DNA of 64,000 nucleotides, from the IMG/VR virus record IMGVR_UViG_3300038454_000106, positions 37,698 to 101,697 of that record; one strand, 5' to 3'. The translations under genes and the position numbers were made by a program. Below are positions 2,641 through 64,000 of this stretch, one piece after another; position 1 is the first letter of the stretch, and each line of letters begins with the position of its first letter. The DNA is from a virus. The notes below the pieces were generated by a model. It was not told the origin of the DNA, made no database searches, and saw nothing but the letters and a program-made list of their open reading frames with translations.

Positions 2641-3009
2641 CTAGTCACAGGTGGACTGGCAACTCACGGGGAATTCCTCCTCGTGGTCGTGAAAAATCGC
2701 GTCCACCCGCCAACATTTGAGTGCTTCCAGCGCAATGAGGCAATCGCTCGCGATCTCCTCGTTGAACGTATGCCCCGCCTCGCAGACGTTCGCCTCCGTC
2801 CAACCGGAACAGCCAAGCTCCGCCGCGTACATCGCCGCGCAATCACCGGTCACGGTCTGCCCACACTGGCTAGCGTCCATGCACAACGTCGTGGTCAGTT
2901 CCTTGCAGAACTCTCGTGGCGACAAGGCCGACCCGGAGCCAGCACCGAGGCTCGAGTCCTCCCCGCAAGCGGTGGCGATGAGTAGCAGCACAATGATCGT
3001 GATCCTCAC
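2641..3009 (-). CDS. Cys-rich lipoprotein, 122 aa
   Basis: The GTG start at 3009 follows GGAGGGACA. The N-terminus VRITIIVLLLIATAC is a short lipoprotein signal with a lipobox ending at the Cys. The mature part contains about eight spaced cysteines (CKEL, LCMD, QCGQ, DCAA, GCSG, VCEA, DCLI, KCWR). This is a layout common in small myxobacterial lipoproteins. It is probably exported and disulfide-bonded; the role is unknown. Confidence 0.65.
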   Translation of the reverse strand: MRITIIVLLLIATACGEDSSLGAGSGSALSPREFCKELTTTLCMDASQCGQTVTGDCAAMYAAELGCSGWTEANVCEAGHTFNEEIASDCLIALEALKCWRVDAIFHDHEEEFPVSCQSTCD

Positions 3010-3064
3010 TGTCCCTCCTTCTTTGTCTTCGCGAACACGAAGCACACCGCCAGTTCCGTCCCCA

Positions 3065-3481
3065 TCACGCCTGCCCCTGCGCCTTCAGCTTTATCCACGG
3101 CTTGCCCGCCAGTTTCTCGGCGCACACCAAGTGGTCACCGCCGATCGGGATGTACTCGACTGGAATCATCAAGCGGTGGTCCTTGCCGTGCTCCTCACAG
3201 GCCTCGGCGAACTTCCCGCCGAAGAACGCTACCGCCGCGGCCTCGCTCGGCCCGAGGTACGGCGATACGAGCACGAGCAGCGTGGAGTCCCCCGAAGAAG
3301 TCACGCCCGTGACTCGTAGCTCAAACGTCTCGCCCTTGCGTACCAACTCGGCGTAGATGGCCATCCCAGCAAACCCTGCATACCAGACCCCGACGATGTA
3401 GTCGGTGGGGTCGATGATCGTCACGGCGGGTGTCCACCTTCCCGCCAGCTTGTCGTTGTCGTCGGCCTCGTCTCGTTTCAT
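3065..3481 (-). CDS. hypothetical protein, 138 aa
   Basis: Soluble 138-residue protein with alternating beta-type segments and no recognised domain. The start at 3481 has GAGAAGG 7-8 nt upstream. It stands between the lipoprotein and the serine recombinase. Confidence 0.6.
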   Translation of the reverse strand: MKRDEADDNDKLAGRWTPAVTIIDPTDYIVGVWYAGFAGMAIYAELVRKGETFELRVTGVTSSGDSTLLVLVSPYLGPSEAAAVAFFGGKFAEACEEHGKDHRLMIPVEYIPIGGDHLVCAEKLAGKPWIKLKAQGQA

Positions 3482-3533
3482 CTGGGAACCTTCTCACGCG
3501 GCTTGACGCCGAGCCAAGCGCCGCTTTCGCTCC

Positions 3534-5309
3534 TCACGCGGCCCGGGGCAGCGCCAAGACCACGATCCGATTCGAGTCCTTCCGCGCACTTCCGGTTGTC
3601 AATTCGGAGTGCTTCAAGAACGAGTTCCGCCGCGAATTGACAATCGCCAAGGCCACGTCTGAGTCGCCCTCGATCCGGAAGATCCGCTTGCGCGGCGACT
3701 TCTTTGGCAGCAGCGTCCCCTTCGGGATCGTCACCGGCGCGAAGTAGAGACCCCCGGGGAAGAGGGCCTCGAAGGCCTGCCGCTTGAGCTTCCGGTCCGC
3801 GCTCTGGAGGTTGTCGCGCATCGCGACGAGGTAACTCCGGACGCCATGCTCGGCCTGCTCGATGGACGCCTCGCGCTCCTTGGGGGCCTTCCAGGCATCG
3901 GCCAGCTCGCGCTCAGCTTCCTTGAGCCGGCCACTCGTCTCCTTGTGCTTGGCGTAGAGCCCGCGCCGATCGTCGACCTGCTCCATGTCCTCCTCGATCC
4001 TACGGAGGCGCTTCCGGAGCGTGCCGATCTCCTTCTGGAGGGCGTCGACGCTGAGGTTCGGCGAGCTGAGTCGGCGCTCCATCGCTGCGCGCACCAGCGC
4101 GACGAGCTGCGCGATGCGCGGTTCGTCCAGCTCGGTCGCGATGCGGCTAGCGAGCGCCGCCTCGACCTCCTCCACCGGCTGGCGAAGGCTCATCGTACAG
4201 ACCGCCTTGCCCTTGCTGGTGTGGGCCGCGCAGCCGTACGAGTAGACCTGCACCCGGCGCCCATTCGCCATCGTACGAGGCCAGCCACGCACGTTGATCG
4301 ACCCACCGCACTCCGCGCAGCGCGCGAGAGATGAAAGCGCGTACTTCACAGCGGGCGATCGCTTGCAGTGCTTCGAGGCTAGGCTCCGCTTCGCACGTGC
4401 CTCCTGCACCGCGTGCCACAATTCGTCATCCACGATGCGGAGACTGGGCGCAAACTTCTCGAGCAGTGGCTCGGGACGCTGGAGACGCTGCTTCTTGCCT
4501 GTGCTCCGGTCCGTGTAGGTCACACCCCACACGACGAGGCCGCGATAGCGTGGGTTGGCCAGCATCTCGTCAACCGTCCTGGGCGACCACGTTCGACCCT
4601 TGCGCTCGGCCTTTCGGTCCGCGTACGGGGGCGGAACCTTGTCAGCGTTGAGGCGCGCGCAGATGAGCCGGGCGCCCATGCCGTCGAGGTTCCAGCGATA
4701 GATCTGGCGCACGACCTGGGCCTCAACCTCATGCACGATGGCAATCGGCTCGCCGTCCATCTCGACGTTGCGATAGCCGTAGCAACCGCCATTGATTGGC
4801 CGTTCTACCTTGAGCCTGCCGCTCGCGATGTCCTCGGCGAACGTGTAGAGCTTCTGCCGTGTGTTCTCGATGATCTTCTTGTGCTCTGCCTCTGCGCCGA
4901 ACGCCTCGACGGCGTTGATGACCCAGTCGGTCGGGTTATCCGCGCGAGTCTCCTTGCGCGTCTGGTAGTAGAAGAGACGGGCCTGCTTGCGCTGGCAGAT
5001 CTCACGGATGAACAATAGCGAGTCAACGATCGTGCGCCCGAGACGTGCGGCATCACGCGCGATCACGATGGAGCCTGGACGGAGCCGCTGCATCATCTCG
5101 CCCAGCGCCGTGCGCGCGTCCCAGTCATCACCGGACACGCCGTTGTCGGCGAAGACCTCGATCGCGAGGCCGGGGAACAGCTCAGCCGCGAACCGGCGCC
5201 CATTTCGTTCCTGGATCTCGATGGTGTCGTCGTCGGCTTTGCTGAGACGGAGCAGGAGACAGACCGTCGGCAGTGACGGCACCGGTTGCAATGCATGGGC
5301 TCTCTTCAC
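3534..5309 (-). CDS. large serine recombinase
   Basis: Large serine recombinase of 591 residues. The N-terminal resolvase domain has the probable nucleophile Ser23 in LLLRLSKADDD, then DNGVSG and the ARDAARLGR helix. A recombinase domain follows, then a zinc ribbon (CAECGGS, with later Cys in SYGCAAH and AVCTM), a long coiled coil at about residues 430-520 and a basic tail. The length and order fit phage integrases of the phiC31/Bxb1 class. The GTG start overlaps the stop of the upstream zinc-finger gene (GTGA). Such enzymes catalyse attP x attB integration. No att site could be recognised. Confidence 0.92.
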   Translation of the reverse strand: MKRAHALQPVPSLPTVCLLLRLSKADDDTIEIQERNGRRFAAELFPGLAIEVFADNGVSGDDWDARTALGEMMQRLRPGSIVIARDAARLGRTIVDSLLFIREICQRKQARLFYYQTRKETRADNPTDWVINAVEAFGAEAEHKKIIENTRQKLYTFAEDIASGRLKVERPINGGCYGYRNVEMDGEPIAIVHEVEAQVVRQIYRWNLDGMGARLICARLNADKVPPPYADRKAERKGRTWSPRTVDEMLANPRYRGLVVWGVTYTDRSTGKKQRLQRPEPLLEKFAPSLRIVDDELWHAVQEARAKRSLASKHCKRSPAVKYALSSLARCAECGGSINVRGWPRTMANGRRVQVYSYGCAAHTSKGKAVCTMSLRQPVEEVEAALASRIATELDEPRIAQLVALVRAAMERRLSSPNLSVDALQKEIGTLRKRLRRIEEDMEQVDDRRGLYAKHKETSGRLKEAERELADAWKAPKEREASIEQAEHGVRSYLVAMRDNLQSADRKLKRQAFEALFPGGLYFAPVTIPKGTLLPKKSPRKRIFRIEGDSDVALAIVNSRRNSFLKHSELTTGSARKDSNRIVVLALPRAA

Positions 5310-45338: not shown

Positions 45339-45817
45339 GTCTCTGGTCAACAGTCGGGGCCCTCGCCGGTGGCGTGGTCCTTGGCGTGCTCGGTGCCGCG
45401 GCATGGGAGCGCCGAGGCCAGCTCGCCGGACTCCCCGAGGACTGGTGGCGCAAGCGACGCGAGCCCAAGGAGCGGCTCTGCTACCGCACGAAGTCGGAAG
45501 CGCTCCAAGCCTTCCGAGATGCGAACCGGCACCAGATCGAGGATTGGGGCGGGCTCGACACGATAGCGAGCCCAGCCGAGTTTGATGCCATCAACGCTCG
45601 ATACGGGCTCAAGGGCTCACGTGCGGTGCGCACGCTGGCACAGGCGCTCTGGGCCGTGATGCCGGCACACGCACCGTTCTGCCTCGACGAGATCGACGTC
45701 GAGACGCTGAACGAGACGAGCCCGGGCCAGCATGGGACGGGCTTCGTGCTGCCGAGCTGGGCCTACGACCTCATCGCCGCGCGCGACGAGGCCGAGCACT
45801 ATGCGACCGCAGGCTAG
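45335..45817 (+). CDS. membrane-anchored protein, 160 aa
   Basis: The GTG start overlaps the upstream stop (GTGA). N-terminal anchor VGALAGGVVLGVLGAAAWER, then a soluble charged domain. Unrecognised. Ends tail to tail with the TolB-like gene by 4 nt. Confidence 0.6.
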   Translation: MSLWSTVGALAGGVVLGVLGAAAWERRGQLAGLPEDWWRKRREPKERLCYRTKSEALQAFRDANRHQIEDWGGLDTIASPAEFDAINARYGLKGSRAVRTLAQALWAVMPAHAPFCLDEIDVETLNETSPGQHGTGFVLPSWAYDLIAARDEAEHYATAG

Positions 45818-47124
45818 TCAGCACAGGGCCCGAAGGAGCCCCCAAAGGCATCCGTGGCCGATGGCACGAGCAGTCGCTCGCCGTCACCTGCGACGTTGAC
45901 AACCCCGGCGGAACTCTGGAACGTGTGGCCACTTGGCGGCAGGTAGCGACTGAAGATGACCCGCTCGCCAGAGATGTCAGTGCTGAAGTCACCCACCACA
46001 GGGCCCGAGAGACTGTGATTGGTCAGCTTGACAGCGACGCCACCGGTAGATGCAACGCGGAACAGCTTGTATGCGCCCTCTCGGTCGCTCGAGAAGACAA
46101 TGCCCGAGTCGTCATTGAGCCATCTCGGGGCGTCCTCGAAGGAGTCGGCACCCAGGGTCAGATCAAGGGTATTCAGGCCGTTGATGTCCGTGGTCCAGAT
46201 GTCATTTTCACGGACGTAGGCAACACGGTAGATCCCGTGTGCGAAAGCTGGCGTACGTTCGGCAACCTCCTCCGTCCTCGTGATGTTCTGCGCAGGTCCA
46301 CCAAGGATGGAGATCCAGTACAGATCCGACGGCAACGAGATGGTGCCATCCTTGATGTTGCGGTGAACGAAGATGATGCCCCTGGAGTCCGGGGCCCACA
46401 CGTAGCCGGCATCATCGATCTCCAGCGCGGTGACGGCCCTTGCCACGGTACCGTCGGTGGTGCCGAACCAGAGTTCCTTGCCACGACGCCACAGGAGCTT
46501 GGTGCCGTCAGGCGACCAGCGCGGCCACGTATCCGCCAGCACGGGTCCGAGGACGTCCAGGGCATGGGTGAGGTTCTGGACCATCGACCCATCGGGGGTC
46601 ACCACGTAGATGTCCGAGGTGGTATTCGATAGCTCGCGGCTAGAGCCAAAGGCGATGAGATCGCCCTTGGGCGACCACGTTGCACTATCGATCGGATTGC
46701 CAGCGGCGATGCTGTACGCGTTGGAGCCGTCAACGTCGGAGATCCAGAGCGCACCGCCGAGCATGTACGCCATGCGGCAGGCCACTGCGGGAGGAGCGTC
46801 CGGCGTTCCGGGAGGTGCATCTGGGATATCGGCATCCGGCGTCGCTGGCGTGGCATCTGGAGGGAGCGCGGCATCGAGGTCCGCTGCGCTCGAGACGCAG
46901 ACGCCCGTGAGTGCTCCACCACTGTCATCGTAGACATAGCCCGAGTCGCACATGCTCTCGGGATAGGCGCAAGAATCCCCTCCGCTGGGAGCCGCCAGGC
47001 AAAGCCCGCTCGGGCGCAAGTTGCACTCGATGTCGGAGCTGCACGAGAACTGCCGGGCGCTCTGACTACAGCCACTGCAGCCGGCCATTACAACGAAGCA
47101 TCCAATCAAGATCAAGGCACGCAT
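45814..47124 (-). CDS. TolB-like beta-propeller lipoprotein, 436 aa
   Basis: MRALILIGCFVVMAGCSGCS is a lipoprotein signal. Residues 25-80 form a Cys-rich domain (CSSDIECNLR, then DSCAYPESMC). An Asp/Ala/Pro-rich linker follows. Then WD40/TolB-type repeats appear (WSPKGDLIAFGSSRE, WSPDGTKLLWRRG, WAPDSRGIIFVHR and FSSDREGAYKLFR). Probably outer-membrane or surface exposed. Host-style myxobacterial protein. Confidence 0.75.
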   Translation of the reverse strand: MRALILIGCFVVMAGCSGCSQSARQFSCSSDIECNLRPSGLCLAAPSGGDSCAYPESMCDSGYVYDDSGGALTGVCVSSAADLDAALPPDATPATPDADIPDAPPGTPDAPPAVACRMAYMLGGALWISDVDGSNAYSIAAGNPIDSATWSPKGDLIAFGSSRELSNTTSDIYVVTPDGSMVQNLTHALDVLGPVLADTWPRWSPDGTKLLWRRGKELWFGTTDGTVARAVTALEIDDAGYVWAPDSRGIIFVHRNIKDGTISLPSDLYWISILGGPAQNITRTEEVAERTPAFAHGIYRVAYVRENDIWTTDINGLNTLDLTLGADSFEDAPRWLNDDSGIVFSSDREGAYKLFRVASTGGVAVKLTNHSLSGPVVGDFSTDISGERVIFSRYLPPSGHTFQSSAGVVNVAGDGERLLVPSATDAFGGSFGPCAD

Positions 47125-48145: not shown

Positions 48146-49807
48146 CTACATGACTCCATTGGGATCGATCTTCTCGGACTTGCGAGGCCGGCTTGACCTG
48201 CGCTTGGGCTTGGGCTTGTGCTCATCGTTCGCCGACGGAGCCGTGATGGCAGCCGCTGGAACGGGCTGGACCGTGAGCACAGGAATCGGAGGAGCTGGCG
48301 GAGGAGCTGGTGGGGGCGCTGGCGGAGGAGCTGGCGGGGGAGCCACCATGAGCGTGGGGACTGGAAGCATGAGAGGACGCTGCACCGCAACGCCCCCGAC
48401 GCCATAGTGGGTCACCGCAGCGATGGCCACGGCGCTGCTGCTCGCAGCGATAAGCCCCATGCCGACAAGACGGCCCCAATGGCGCTGTGCCCTGGATGTC
48501 GGCGCGATGACACCAGCAAAGCCGCCCATCGACGTGGAACCGGAGACGCCGCTCATCGACGAGGGACTCGTCGGTCCCGTGACGGCGCTGGCCATCACCG
48601 TACCGCCGTTCATCATCGTCGGCGTCTGGACCGGCGCAGGAGCCACCACCGGTGAGACGCCACCAGTCGGCATGGTCGCGTGAACGATGTCGCCTTCGTT
48701 CAGCTCGATCACCTTGCTCTCGCTCGGATCGGCGCCCCGAATGGCATCCAGTGGAGCAGACACGTCATGGATCGAGATCGGCACGCCTCCCGGTGGAAAG
48801 AAGGGTCGCACCAAAGCGGGCTTGAGCGTGGGCTCTAGGCCCAACTCGCGCCAGTGATGCATGAGGAGTGCAGGGCCATTCGGCGACGTGTGCGACAACG
48901 CGATCGCCACCTCGCGCATGTCCCTCATGCGATCGCCGGGCTCCCACGCCATCGCGTGGGCAAAGAGCGCATCCCAGTACAAGCTGACATCGGGCCGAAA
49001 CCTGGTCGCCGGCACGAACGGCCTACGTTTGGCCTCGTAGATCTGCATCTCGTTGCTCCCCTCGAAGGGGTATCGCCCGGTCAGCATGAGATAGAGCACA
49101 ACGCCAAGGCTGTACACATCTGTCCTGGCATCGACGTCACGGGAGTCCTGCACCTGCTCGGGCGACATGTAGTGTGGCGTGCCCATACACAGGCGCTGCA
49201 TCGTCTCGATGGCCGTCGGGAGCACGCATGGTGCAAGCGGCGACGTGCTCCCAGGTGCAGGCACCTTGGCAATGCCATAATCGAGTAGCTTCGCCACTTG
49301 CACACCATCGATATCGCAGATAAAGATATTGGAGGGCTTGACGTCGCGATGATAGATATTCTCCTTGTGGCCCTTGTAGAGCCCGCGGGCCACCTGGGTC
49401 CCGATCGCAATCACCTCCTCGACGGTAAATCGCAGCTTGATCTCTTGGAGCTTCTTGAGATCGTGGCCCGTCAAATACTCCATCACGATGAAGTGGCGGC
49501 CATCGGGGAGCTGTCCGATCTCGTAGATCGTCGTCGTGTGCCTGCCACCGACGCGTGATGCGGCGCGTGCCTCCGCGTAGAAGCGATTGACTTGCGCCTT
49601 CGCATCATCGCTCTTGCTCGGCGGCTGCGTGAGCACCTTCATGGCACGGCGCTCGTCGAGGTCAATATGGTGGACCTGATAGACCGTGCCCATGCCGCCA
49701 GCACCAATCATCTCTTTGACGACGTATCGGCCGACCTGCTGTCCTACTAGCAAATCGATCCTCCTGGTGTCGCCCTGCCTGCTGTCAATCGTGCCTGCGG
49801 TCGTCAT
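48146..49807 (-). CDS. Hanks-type Ser/Thr protein kinase, membrane-anchored, 553 aa
   Basis: Kinase domain at about residues 25-310: GAGGMGTVY (P-loop), AMKVL (Lys), HRDVKPSN (catalytic loop), LLDYGIAK (DYG in place of DFG), GTPHYMSPEQ and the conserved Arg region. A transmembrane segment (GRLVGMGLIAASSSAVAIAA) is followed by a Pro-rich tail of PPAPPPAP repeats and a basic end. All catalytic residues are present. Such kinases are abundant in myxobacteria. Here it sits inside a virion-like gene array. Confidence 0.9.
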   Translation of the reverse strand: MTTAGTIDSRQGDTRRIDLLVGQQVGRYVVKEMIGAGGMGTVYQVHHIDLDERRAMKVLTQPPSKSDDAKAQVNRFYAEARAASRVGGRHTTTIYEIGQLPDGRHFIVMEYLTGHDLKKLQEIKLRFTVEEVIAIGTQVARGLYKGHKENIYHRDVKPSNIFICDIDGVQVAKLLDYGIAKVPAPGSTSPLAPCVLPTAIETMQRLCMGTPHYMSPEQVQDSRDVDARTDVYSLGVVLYLMLTGRYPFEGSNEMQIYEAKRRPFVPATRFRPDVSLYWDALFAHAMAWEPGDRMRDMREVAIALSHTSPNGPALLMHHWRELGLEPTLKPALVRPFFPPGGVPISIHDVSAPLDAIRGADPSESKVIELNEGDIVHATMPTGGVSPVVAPAPVQTPTMMNGGTVMASAVTGPTSPSSMSGVSGSTSMGGFAGVIAPTSRAQRHWGRLVGMGLIAASSSAVAIAAVTHYGVGGVAVQRPLMLPVPTLMVAPPPAPPPAPPPAPPPAPPIPVLTVQPVPAAAITAPSANDEHKPKPKRRSSRPRKSEKIDPNGVM

Positions 49808-54390: not shown

Positions 54391-55311
54391 ATGGCCAACA
54401 CAGTTATTTACAACGTCGTTCCCTCGATCGAAGAGGCGCGCCAGCGTGGGCAATCGGTCTGGGATCTCTACCTAGAAGGCTTCTCGTCGGGCGCCAGCGG
54501 GAACGTCTCGATCTACCCAGAAGATGGCCGCCAGGCACTGACGTCGGTCTATGCCATCACGATCGGGAACCGCTCGCATCTCGACCGGTGCTTCGTGCTC
54601 TGGGATCCGCAGGCCACGCTCGCGCCCATCGACTCCGACGATGGCGTGCCGGACTTCATGCGACGTGTGACGACGACCGCCCCATTGATCTTCCCGCAGA
54701 CCGGCAATGTGGGCCCGACGTCGATCGTCGTCGCAACGCCACCTAGGCTGGGCGCCATTCGTGTCGCGGGCGATCCCGCAGACTTCATCCGCAACTTTGC
54801 GACGCAGTTGAACCGGATCGACAAGGACGTCGTCTTTCGGCCAGTCAGCTACATCCCTGTTGGCGGCGCAGAGGTTGTGATCGACTGGGACGTTGCGCCG
54901 AATATTACAATCGCCCCAGTCCTGCATCTTCAGTTCTATCTGCAGCCACCGAACCAGGTGCCCTATGGGCGTGCGCCCTATCGGCAGTGGAATGGGCGCG
55001 AGATCAATCTCGCTGCCGAGACCTTGATCCTCATGTGCGCGATCCACGGACGGCGTCTGGTTCGCGTGGAGGTGACGACGGACGATGCCCTAGTGACTGA
55101 CGCGACCGTGCGAGTTGGCGCGTTCAGCCCGATCGCGGAGGACCCGGTGGCCTTCATCCCGCGAGAATTCACCATTGCCACCGGCGCCATCGTCTCGAGT
55201 GCGCCCGCGAGTATCCTCATCACGAATCCGGTGGCAGACTGGCTTACCGTCTATGCGACGTCGACCAGCGGTGTCGGCAACGTGAACGTGAAGGTTTACG
55301 CCATCGACTAG
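54391..55311 (+). CDS. beta-rich structural candidate, 306 aa
   Basis: Starts MANTVIYNVVPSIEEARQRG. Almost entirely predicted beta strands (SVYAITIGNRSHLDRCFVLW, then VIDWDVAPNITIAPVLHLQF and a final Val/Asn-rich strand). No signal peptide or anchor. Strong single promoter. It sits directly beside the capsid-candidate pair. Could be a capsid, penton or spike protein. Confidence 0.6.
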   Translation: MANTVIYNVVPSIEEARQRGQSVWDLYLEGFSSGASGNVSIYPEDGRQALTSVYAITIGNRSHLDRCFVLWDPQATLAPIDSDDGVPDFMRRVTTTAPLIFPQTGNVGPTSIVVATPPRLGAIRVAGDPADFIRNFATQLNRIDKDVVFRPVSYIPVGGAEVVIDWDVAPNITIAPVLHLQFYLQPPNQVPYGRAPYRQWNGREINLAAETLILMCAIHGRRLVRVEVTTDDALVTDATVRVGAFSPIAEDPVAFIPREFTIATGAIVSSAPASILITNPVADWLTVYATSTSGVGNVNVKVYAID

Positions 55312-56069: not shown

Positions 56070-56387
56070 TCATGACTCCGCGAATTGCAGCGGAAAGGCC
56101 TTGCTCGCGGCGACGGAGACTGAGCCACCCGCACCCACGCCAGCGCAGTACAGGACGTCATTCGGCTCGAGGACGAAGACATCCGATCGGTCCGCCGGCA
56201 GGAAGTAGGAGTCAAGCACTGACTGCGACGAGATCAGTGCGTTGGCCGAGTACGAGATGAACACGCCACCAGGTCCATTGTTGCGGACCATGGCGCGCAC
56301 AGGTCCGCGGACCGTGGCACTGGCGAGCCGCGAAGGGCTCGCCGTGCCGACGGCATTGACGGTGACCGTCTTGGTGTTGGCCGCCAT
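56070..56387 (-). CDS. beta-rich protein, 105 aa, structural candidate
   Basis: MAANTKTVTVNAVGTASPSR; Ser/Val-rich strands throughout (AMVRNNGPGGVFISYSANAL, FVLEPNDVLYCAGVGAGG). Resembles small beta-sandwich decoration or capsid proteins. Downstream of the two capsid candidates. Confidence 0.6.
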   Translation of the reverse strand: MAANTKTVTVNAVGTASPSRLASATVRGPVRAMVRNNGPGGVFISYSANALISSQSVLDSYFLPADRSDVFVLEPNDVLYCAGVGAGGSVSVAASKAFPLQFAES

Positions 56388-56396
56388 GGCGTCACC

Positions 56397-56900
56397 TCAC
56401 CGTGAGTCGCTGGGCGCCGCGATCTGGATCAGGAAGCCCTGCCAGTTCAGCTCGATCTTGAGACTCGTCACCGTGGCCACGAGGCTTGCGGGCTCGGCCA
56501 GGGTGGTGACTGCGATCTGGAAGCCACCCGAGTTGGGCAGCGTGTAGGGCTCAGCCAGCTCCCACGTGCGCTCCGACGTACCCTTGACCATGTCACGGAT
56601 CAACGTCGGCGCCTTCGTGAACTTCTGGTCCGTGCGGAAGTCGAGGATGTCGAGCCGCACGAGCGCCTGCAGCGTGTCCTGATCGGGCTGCGTGCCGAGC
56701 AGGAGCTGGTTGTTGTCCAGGGCAGCCACGCGGGGCAGCAGCCGATGGATCTCGAACGGCTTGTCTACCTGGTTGGTAAACACGACATCCGGGAACGTGA
56801 CGCCATTCTGGGAGAAGCCAATCACCAGCTCGGCCGGCATGTTGTACGGAAACCGAGCCGTGATCTTCTGCCCCGCGAAGGTGTCGGGCAATCTCCCCAT
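56397..56900 (-). CDS. small jelly-roll capsid protein candidate, 167 aa
   Basis: MGRLPDTFAGQKITARFPYN; predicted strands run through the chain (AELVIGFSQNGVTFPDVVF, QALVRLDILDFRTDQ, RTWELAEPYTLPNSGGFQIA, SLKIELNWQGFLIQI). Size and fold type suit a single jelly-roll capsid subunit (compare 173-residue VP16 of Thermus phage P23-77, from memory). No sequence match was run. Confidence 0.55.
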   Translation of the reverse strand: MGRLPDTFAGQKITARFPYNMPAELVIGFSQNGVTFPDVVFTNQVDKPFEIHRLLPRVAALDNNQLLLGTQPDQDTLQALVRLDILDFRTDQKFTKAPTLIRDMVKGTSERTWELAEPYTLPNSGGFQIAVTTLAEPASLVATVTSLKIELNWQGFLIQIAAPSDSR

Positions 56901-57061
56901 AAATTACACCGCCTCGACCCCCCGTGATCATTCTTGAGGGCCGCGAAGGGTTGTTGTGGTGGTCTCTCTCGAGACCGATATCAAGGGGAGGCCGAACCCT
57001 CCCAATGGGACGTCCGATCGCATTGTCCGCTGTGCGGGCGACGCGTCCGGGATCTGGATCC
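56901..57061. other. 161-nt gap with a perfect hairpin
   Basis: GGTCTC TCTC GAGACC at 56961-56976 between the two capsid-candidate genes. It may adjust relative expression of the two. A 30-codon frame (MRSDVPLGGFGLPLIS) is present but lacks a ribosome-binding site. Confidence 0.4.
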
Positions 57062-57769
57062 TCAGACCACGGGTCGCTTGATCAACCCTACCTTCTCGAC
57101 CTTGAAGTCCATGAACGTCAGGGCGACGCCGCCATCCGAGGCGGCCTGGCTGATCACCAGCGCTGCCTCTGGGAACATCGCCATCTTGTAGCCCAGGTTC
57201 TCTTGCTCGAGGATCGGCAGCACCATCGACCAGCGGTCACGCGGGCTCGGCACACCGTTCTGCGCCAGCTCGAAGTCGCCAGTGGTGGCGAACACGTTCC
57301 AGCCGTGGCCCTGGGGGTAGTTCTGCATGACCCCCTGCGAGTAGATCTTCTCGCGGTACTCGTACTGCAGGAAGGTCACGCGATCGACGCTGAACAGCGT
57401 CTGCAGACGCACCGGGTTCGACAGCGCGCCTGCACCGTCGGCGAGCACCGGCTGGGTCTGTCCGGTCGGCGGACGCGTGACGCGGACCGCCTTGCACGCG
57501 ATCGTGTAGACCAGCATCGAGAACGCCTGCGGCAGTCCGTTCGGACCCGGGCGTGGGATGTTGGTATCGACACGCGTCATGGTGCGCGTGCCACCGGGGA
57601 TCTGCTGCGAGCGGCCGGCGGAGAACGCCTCGACGGGGGTTCCCTGACCGTTGGAGAGCTGGACCGTGCCGTAGTAGCGGTCATCGATCCAGTCCGCCAG
57701 CTCGATGACGGTTCCGTCCGCGAGGGCGAGAGTTGAGGTTCCTGGGGCTACACCGACAGTTCCAACCAC
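57062..57769 (-). CDS. major capsid protein candidate, 235 aa
   Basis: GTG start after GGAG. Predicted beta sandwich: DDRYYGTVQLSNGQGTPVEA, then GLPQAFSMLVYTIACKAVRV, TLFSVDRVTFLQYEYREKIY and ALTFMDFKVEKVGLI. No signal or anchor. Adjacent to the 167-aa beta protein in one leftward operon, as small and large capsid genes are in sphaerolipovirus-like phages. Confidence 0.55.
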   Translation of the reverse strand: MVGTVGVAPGTSTLALADGTVIELADWIDDRYYGTVQLSNGQGTPVEAFSAGRSQQIPGGTRTMTRVDTNIPRPGPNGLPQAFSMLVYTIACKAVRVTRPPTGQTQPVLADGAGALSNPVRLQTLFSVDRVTFLQYEYREKIYSQGVMQNYPQGHGWNVFATTGDFELAQNGVPSPRDRWSMVLPILEQENLGYKMAMFPEAALVISQAASDGGVALTFMDFKVEKVGLIKRPVV

Positions 57770-57836: not shown

Positions 57837-58418
57837 TCAGTGCGCGCTGAAGAGGTTGGCACCGTAGGCGGAAGCGAGACCATGAGGAGCCTGCAGCGTC
57901 GGGCCGGCGAGCATCTGGGCCTGCATGCCCAGCGCGCTGCCACCCCCGAGCAGGTTGATCGGCGGACCGAGCGCAGCCGACTGCGCGACGCCAGCGACAC
58001 CGGGCACCGTGCCGTAGGAGGATGGTGTCGGGATCACGGTCGCGACGCCGAGCCCGCCGTTGAGATAGTTGACCTGCGGAAGGCCAAGCTGATTCACGAC
58101 GGGCACGCCGAACGCGCCCATGAACGAGCCCTTGGTGAGCTTGTTCTCGATGGCACCGACGCCAACGGCGAGAAGTCCACCGAGCACAGCGCCCGCGCCC
58201 GCACCATGCGTGTCCGGTCCCATCGCGTAGAGCACGCCTCCCGAAAGCGCCGCCAGACCAAGTCCGATGTAGAGCGCTTTGTCCGCCACAGAGGGGATGA
58301 ACTTGGATCCGATGTAGCCGGCTGCTGAGGCACCACCACCGATGGCCAGACCCCACAGGGGATTCAGACCGACCGTGCGGCCGAAGTCATCGATACCGAG
58401 CAGGTTGACGTGCGCCAT
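57837..58418 (-). CDS. Gly/Ala-rich multi-pass membrane protein, 193 aa
   Basis: MAHVNLLGIDDFGRTVGLNP, then three to four hydrophobic Gly-rich segments (WGLAIGGGASAAGYIG, YIGLGLAALSGGVLYAMG, GAVLGGLLAVGVGAIE) and a Gly/Ala-rich tail. GAGGAG upstream. Probably the main protein of a virion internal membrane; inference from position. Confidence 0.6.
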   Translation of the reverse strand: MAHVNLLGIDDFGRTVGLNPLWGLAIGGGASAAGYIGSKFIPSVADKALYIGLGLAALSGGVLYAMGPDTHGAGAGAVLGGLLAVGVGAIENKLTKGSFMGAFGVPVVNQLGLPQVNYLNGGLGVATVIPTPSSYGTVPGVAGVAQSAALGPPINLLGGGSALGMQAQMLAGPTLQAPHGLASAYGANLFSAH

Positions 58419-60223: not shown

Positions 60224-60478
60224 TCACTTCTTTGGCTTGCCGTAGCCTTCCCAGAACGCGACGGCGGGCGTGATGATCGGAAATACGTAGCCGAGCACAA
60301 ACCATCCGACGCCCCACCCGACGGACCCGTTGTTGCGATGGTAACCGTGGTAGCCGGACACGAGCCCGGAGACGGTACCGACGACACCCCAGAAGCTCAG
60401 GCCAGGGATCGTCAAGCCGAGCTGGGAGTCGCCGACCATTCGGGAACTAGGACGTGGATAAGGCATCATGTGCGGCAT
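60224..60478 (-). CDS. membrane protein, 84 aa
   Basis: Two hydrophobic segments (FWGVVGTVSGLVSGYHGYH and VGWFVLGYVFPIITPAVAFW), His/Gly/Tyr-rich loop, basic end. Unknown. Confidence 0.55.
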   Translation of the reverse strand: MPHMMPYPRPSSRMVGDSQLGLTIPGLSFWGVVGTVSGLVSGYHGYHRNNGSVGWGVGWFVLGYVFPIITPAVAFWEGYGKPKK

Positions 60479-63579: not shown

Positions 63580-64000
63580 ATGAGCATGTCCGCCAACGTC
63601 GCAGAGGCGATCAAGATCCTTCGCACCGCCGAGACCGAGCTGACGAGCGCGGTAAACCTCGGCTACACGACCGCAGTCGTGATCCCGGGTCCCGTCCCTG
63701 CGCCCGAGGAGACGACCATCATCGCGCTACGGGCGACAGGGATCCCGGGTCCGATCGCGATCAAGGCCGTCCTCATGAACGGCGACAAGTACATGGCTTG
63801 GCGGGCAGCATGGGAGGTGCTCATGGCCTTTGCCGGCTGGTGGGGCCGGCAGGCGCGTTGGCCGCTTGGCGACGGTGAGCGTGCCAAGAAAGATCCGACG
63901 ACGGCGGCAGGTATGCCACCGCTGGGCGCTGGGCTCGCGGCGCTGTCCGCGACCCTGACAGCGATCACAGCACCGACCTGGAAGCCGTCCGTACGGCTCG
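63580..64000 (+). CDS. hypothetical protein, partial at the right edge
   Basis: ATG 63580 after GAGACGAGG. MSMSANVAEAIKILRTAETE, then a hydrophobic/Pro segment and an open frame of 140 codons to the end of the window. No stop reached. Helical then Ala-rich. Unknown; continues the rightward late operon. Confidence 0.6.
   Translation, partial: MSMSANVAEAIKILRTAETELTSAVNLGYTTAVVIPGPVPAPEETTIIALRATGIPGPIAIKAVLMNGDKYMAWRAAWEVLMAFAGWWGRQARWPLGDGERAKKDPTTAAGMPPLGAGLAALSATLTAITAPTWKPSVRL

Follow-up and report, generated by a model that had tools for sequence, protein, structure and literature searches.

Do two adjacent leftward genes of a large phage genome encode its shell, and if so, to what kind of virus does that shell belong? 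The genes lie within a stretch of 64,000 nucleotides (the window) that comprises bases 37698-101697 of a 101,697-bp IMG/VR record, here called G000. Large genomes of bacterial viruses are tied to tailed phages and to packaging by terminase. The original prediction was that the two genes encode soluble, almost all-beta proteins of 167 and 235 residues, and that these are a pair of single jelly-roll capsid proteins of the kind found in P23-77-like phages. We followed up this prediction with searches for related records, structure modeling, and profile searches for head and packaging genes.

The gene pair and its neighbours

Both genes proved to be real and are located on the minus strand of the window (Table 1). 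Their codon-position GC contents (0.61/0.42/0.88 for the 167-aa gene and 0.64/0.47/0.85 for the 235-aa gene) are typical coding values. Iterated searches identified 17 further records, comprising nine and then six virus records plus two bacterial genome loci, and the pair was found in 18/18 related records when the window's own record is included. The 235-aa protein (hereafter the large protein) was 57-67% identical to the first 11 relatives found, and for the 167-aa protein (the small protein) identity to the first six was 33-54%. Over all sequences compared, large proteins were 44-93% identical to one another and small proteins 16-85%. Because both are conserved, chance open reading frames are excluded, and among the virion-type proteins of the group the large one is conserved most strongly. 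As predicted, neither protein carries a membrane anchor, with zero transmembrane segments predicted in either. The large protein had also been expected to open with DDRYYGTVQLSNGQ. This was incorrect; its actual N-terminus is MVGTVGVAPGTSTLALADG, and DDRYYGTVQLSNGQ begins at residue 29.

Pfam and PHROG searches with the two proteins returned nothing beyond chance, and a search of the PDB by sequence gave chance matches only. Neither protein had a match in a plasmid collection, nor did the large protein have one among annotated phages. Profile comparison of the large protein with the small one revealed no homology between them.

The usual gene order in the group is large, small, 105-aa and 306-aa, with the transglutaminase-like gene upstream, and the 105-aa and 306-aa genes lie beside the pair in most of the 18 records. 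Both had been named as neighbours of the pair. In the window this held for the 105-aa gene, which adjoins the 167-aa gene, but not for the 306-aa gene, which is on the opposite strand behind the 252-aa gene. No relatives of the 252-aa protein were found. A few records have the small gene several kilobases away, and in record G003 it is split across two reading frames. Also in G003, a longer open frame that includes a diverged small-protein homologue adjoins a HerA-type ATPase (L028:2-1354 and 1420-2484). C152, H185 and D204 of the transglutaminase-like protein are invariant between the window and its counterpart in L002. Many proteins of the cluster have a single membrane segment each; around the pair, membrane proteins were not significantly enriched (Fisher P 0.07-0.21).

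Table 1. Features of the window discussed in the text. Positions are those of the window.
Feature	Position	Strand	Remarks
DNA polymerase A, 917 aa	34371..37124	-	Conserved in complete relatives
Conserved 306-aa protein	54391..55311	+	In many relatives located behind the 105-aa gene and co-oriented with it; inverted in the window
252-aa protein, one C-terminal membrane segment	55308..56066	-	Between the 105-aa and 306-aa genes
Conserved 105-aa neighbour	56070..56387	-	Usually immediately 3' of the small protein gene
Small capsid candidate, 167 aa	56397..56900	-	ATG start; confident all-beta model; found in all records searched
Large capsid candidate, 235 aa	57062..57769	-	GTG start; N-terminal motif VGVAPGTST; C-terminus GLIKRPVV
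Conserved 193-aa membrane protein	57837..58418	-	Immediately precedes the large protein gene
Conserved 84-aa cluster membrane protein	60224..60478	-	
Transglutaminase-like protein (PF01841, E 6.4e-08), N-terminal hydrophobic segment	60488..61168	-	In nearly all records
Weak peptidoglycan-binding match, C-terminal membrane segment	61211..61846	+	
Conserved 101-aa protein, C-terminal membrane segment	61850..62155	+	
245-aa protein, C-terminal membrane segment	62830..63567	+	N-terminal VGVAPGTTT
First part of an open reading frame continuing in frame into the record's first bases	63580..64000	+	Closes the circle

Chromosomal relatives were found in one Gemmatimonadota genome and one Actinomycetes bin. 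Searches of the Gemmatimonadota by phylum and by order detected the family in two genomes only, and a short Gemmatimonadota contig (L052), additional to the 18 records, carries diverged versions of both proteins. In the chromosome G011, a locus of ~32 kb at 3.688-3.720 Mb (L034, L015) holds the group's virion-type genes beside host metabolic genes, with no match to a DNA polymerase or helicase, and is possibly a partial provirus. In a second, roughly 13-kb locus near 1.19 Mb of this Gemmatimonadota chromosome, the large protein is represented by three paralogues in tandem (L051:2197-2880, 2896-3585 and 3597-4346), and no small protein was recognised there. A terminase near this second locus was judged to belong to a separate prophage, as about 13 kb of host-like genes lie between.

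Predicted folds of the two proteins

The AlphaFold2 model of the small protein, built from 19 sequences, was of high confidence (pLDDT 90.3, pTM 0.82) and all beta. When it was compared with the PDB by Foldseek, the best matches were chain H of the Pam1 capsid asymmetric unit (probability 1.00), which we take to be the Pam1 cement protein, the KHP40 cement protein (probability 1.00) and HHIV-2 (probability 0.98). The two cement proteins ranked first and third, and many single-jelly-roll capsid proteins, including those of SH1 and HCIV-1, followed below the top matches. The best E-value was 0.0035, with nothing under 0.003, and TM scores reached 0.55 (about 0.36-0.55 for the Pam1 and KHP40/KHP30 cement proteins). 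From this model, the fold is most likely a viral jelly-roll-type beta sandwich, and as modeled it fits a capsid or a cement role alike. Pam1 and KHP40/KHP30 are tailed phages with HK97-type heads. The cement proteins of Pam1 and KHP30 have been described as immunoglobulin-like (PMC9698820).

The model of the large protein (10 sequences) was also all beta, with long strands, at low confidence (pLDDT 42.9, pTM 0.43). Every Foldseek E-value was 0.049 or worse, and all were insignificant. By our own reading of the list, the top 50 PDB entries were mostly jelly-roll capsid proteins, picornavirus entries being over-represented in the PDB. Capsid proteins of circoviruses, iridoviruses and tectiviruses were among the insignificant matches in a viral structure library. 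A jelly-roll fold for the large protein is a lead from a model, not a result. The all-beta content foreseen for both proteins was thus borne out for the small protein by a confident model, and is weakly indicated for the large one.

Apparently complete genomes and the search for tailed-phage genes

Eight records carry end repeats of 90-177 bp that are exact or 98-99% identical: G004 (77.5 kb), G006 (80.4 kb), G473 (85.2 kb), G475 (85.7 kb), G005 (126.5 kb), G472 (129.4 kb), G474 (137.9 kb) and G002 (195.8 kb). Because of these repeats, the eight are apparently complete circles of 77-196 kb. No end repeat was found in G000. When its ends were joined (window 63580-64000 to L003:1-512), an uninterrupted reading frame of 315 codons resulted, whose two halves flank the junction and resemble each other, and the gene order across the junction agrees with that of G004. 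The window's record is therefore probably circular and complete, at about 101.7 kb.

A common core in four full records consists of DNA polymerase A, an SNF2-type helicase, a PD-(D/E)XK nuclease, a Sak4-like ATPase, an AAA+ protein, a coiled protein of ~700 aa and the virion-type genes. In addition, G004 encodes rIIA, rIIB, ThyX, a dCMP deaminase, an RNA ligase and lysis-type or peptidoglycan-hydrolase domains. The records carry genes that are usual in large phages, and the members of the group are phages, not plasmids carrying stray genes. A record-wide scan of G000 gave one uracil-DNA glycosylase match, probably to the DNA polymerase A protein. The coiled protein (700-790 aa, with acidic ends; L003:1103-3271 and L040:2615-4714) adjoins the virion-type genes in all four full records and had no family match. 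It was rejected as an ATPase, since it has neither a Walker motif nor a family match.

Could these be tailed phages in which head proteins and terminase have diverged beyond recognition, so that the small protein is a cement protein and the large one another decoration or minor head protein? Matches to tailed-phage decoration proteins had been named beforehand as evidence against a jelly-roll capsid pair, and the Pam1 and KHP40 cement proteins were indeed two of the three best matches of the small protein; no other parts of a tailed head accompanied them. The terminase models PF03237 and PF17289, at E 1, matched 0/15 records, including the eight apparently complete circles, and the portal (PF04860) and HK97 capsid (PF05065) models, also at E 1, matched 0/14 records. 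The control genomes matched in each case, and divergent portal and capsid forms fall partly outside these models. A further terminase test with phrog_2 found none in the records; as this family matched 13/14 control genomes, what it stands for is doubtful, and no weight was placed on the result.

Family by family, the outcome was similar. The complete G004 genome yielded neither a portal nor an HK97 capsid, a tape measure or a tail tube. Its unassigned proteins matched 14 PHROG families (the complete list), among which the only head or tail matches were weak ones to a terminase small subunit (E 0.0012) and a lytic tail protein (E 0.0016). One G004 protein had a PHROG match labelled as portal; Nudix matches of this protein coincide with it, and it was not counted. 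For the unassigned proteins of G000 there were matches to 22 PHROG families, with spike families and one 'tail protein' family among them, as the tailed-phage reading would have it; none of the 22 was a family of head or packaging proteins. The longest unassigned core proteins have no canonical Walker A motif. Moreover, for a decoration protein it would be unusual to be the most conserved of the virion-type proteins, as the large protein is. Taken as sequence comparisons, these negatives are strong evidence against ordinary tailed phages, though not proof against extreme divergence, and we regard a diverged tailed phage as unlikely.

Packaging ATPases of the FtsK/HerA type were also sought. 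PF01580 gave no match above the cut-off in 14 records. A HerA-type ATPase (PF01935) was present in 4/15 records (G002, G003, G006 and G009) and missing from the other 11, among them complete genomes and the window's own record. As it is limited to four records, it was not accepted as the packaging motor of the group. An AAA+ protein of 534-608 aa was likewise set aside, in view of its weak primase matches and its position in the replication module. No packaging ATPase conserved across the group was recognised.

A proposed tailless shell and its relation to known viruses

These findings also bear on the proposed kinship with P23-77, for which the group would consist of P23-77-like viruses, with two single-jelly-roll proteins and an FtsK/HerA ATPase, that have grown to large genomes. 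The known viruses of this kind (Helvetiavirae/Singelaviria, with Matshushitaviridae, Simuloviridae and Sphaerolipoviridae) have genomes of 16-19 kb (PMC12642351) or about 30 kb (PMC12643093); Simuloviridae genomes are circular and their capsids use two single-jelly-roll proteins (PMC12642351), and Helvetiavirae combine two single-jelly-roll proteins with an FtsK/HerA ATPase (PMC8328091). The likeness lies in the adjacent genes for a small and a larger protein, of sizes similar to VP16 and VP17, in the HHIV-2, HCIV-1 and SH1 capsid proteins among the structural neighbours of the small protein, and in the HerA-type ATPase of four records, which bears a weak resemblance to those of P23-77 and IN93 (E 0.004-0.008). 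However, neither phmmer nor hhalign, with two P23-77-type sequences per profile, found any similarity between the pair and VP16, VP17 or other P23-77/IN93 structural proteins. The gene order is large-small, the reverse of the small-large order in P23-77, and circles of 77-196 kb compare with 17 kb for P23-77. The packaging ATPase carried by P23-77-like viruses is not conserved here, and in G009 the HerA-type gene adjoins the DNA polymerase gene.

On the features tested, the group is outside the P23-77 family, though it may work like P23-77, and we consider an enlarged P23-77-like virus improbable. What stood of the predicted P23-77-like pair is a conserved, adjacent pair of phage genes with a small beta-sandwich protein whose structural neighbours are mostly viral jelly rolls, in a group whose complete members have no match to terminase, portal or HK97 capsid; the direct kinship did not. 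It is more improbable still that the pair are spike or matrix proteins of a membrane-vesicle or otherwise non-icosahedral particle and not a capsid lattice, as the many cluster proteins with one membrane segment and the missing conserved packaging ATPase might suggest, since two adjacent soluble beta-rich proteins, one of them the most conserved, suit a shell better and most structural neighbours of the small protein come from icosahedral capsids.

We conclude, with a probability of about 65%, that the pair are the shell proteins of a new lineage of tailless, probably membrane-containing phages with circular double-stranded DNA. The phage, of ~102 kb, would have these two as its main shell proteins, the small protein being a single jelly-roll-type beta sandwich, a fold modeled with confidence, and the large one most likely a second beta barrel with a flexible N-terminal arm starting VGVAPGTST. 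The capsid role of both proteins and the internal membrane are inferred, and membrane proteins, as given above, are not significantly enriched around the pair.

A peptide shared by two proteins suggests how such a shell might be held. The motif VGV[AS]Px[TS]xT opens both the large protein and a second protein, usually with a C-terminal membrane segment, in 13/13 records where both are visible. In the window, the VGVAPxTTT-type peptide occurs in the large protein and in the 245-aa protein (Table 1), and the candidate docking peptide has the sequence VGVAPGTTTLTL. Variants of the motif tend to match within a record: L059 has GSYT, L061 has GTYT and L058 has VGVSPGTTT, each in both proteins, the second protein being encoded at L059:1194-1526, L061:692-997 and L058:3497-3859. 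Since related records are not independent, this agreement counts as two or three events. Because the same N-terminal motif is present on both, the large protein and the membrane-anchored protein may have a common docking partner, and the peptide is perhaps a shell-to-membrane tether. In the proposed particle, the arm and the membrane-anchored protein would probably dock on this one shared partner and so tie the shell to an internal membrane, and the transglutaminase-like and peptidoglycan-binding proteins could serve in cross-linking or entry.

Among known jelly-roll viruses, FLiP and SPV1 have no packaging ATPase (PMC8812541), as no conserved one was recognised in the present group. The host of SPV1 is archaeal. 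FLiP differs in that its genome is single-stranded DNA and its capsid protein a double jelly roll (PMC7654751, PMC8328091), and the genomes of prokaryotic double-jelly-roll viruses are below 20 kb (PMC8812541). The HK97 head machinery of Pam1 and KHP40 was not found here with the profile models tested. More tentatively, and with some doubt, we suggest that the lineage lies outside the diagnostic gene sets of the known realms, combining a tailless jelly-roll shell, double-stranded DNA of up to ~196 kb and a shared docking peptide with neither a terminase nor a universal FtsK/HerA ATPase.

The viral group is apparently undescribed so far. No tailless bacterial virus of this size is described in the literature searched, preprints and most subscription papers aside, and an earlier description is possible. 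Known tailless jelly-roll phages have genomes of roughly 15-30 kb, a size that these circles exceed several times over. If the main reading is true, a large bacterial virus genome, up to 196 kb, can travel in a shell other than that of tailed phages, which directly raises the question of how such DNA is packaged without terminase. Next to the tailed phages, viruses of bacteria would then have a second way of reaching large genomes, comparable to what is seen in the large jelly-roll viruses that infect eukaryotes, and the eight apparently complete genomes make the lineage testable.

In the window, a eukaryote-type serine/threonine kinase (48146-49807) and a PD40-repeat lipoprotein-like protein (45814-47124) are cargo unusual for a phage, possibly acquired from the host. 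Elsewhere in G000, a protein of 1270 aa (L004:11299-15111) matches the eCIS_core domain (E 9.8e-11).
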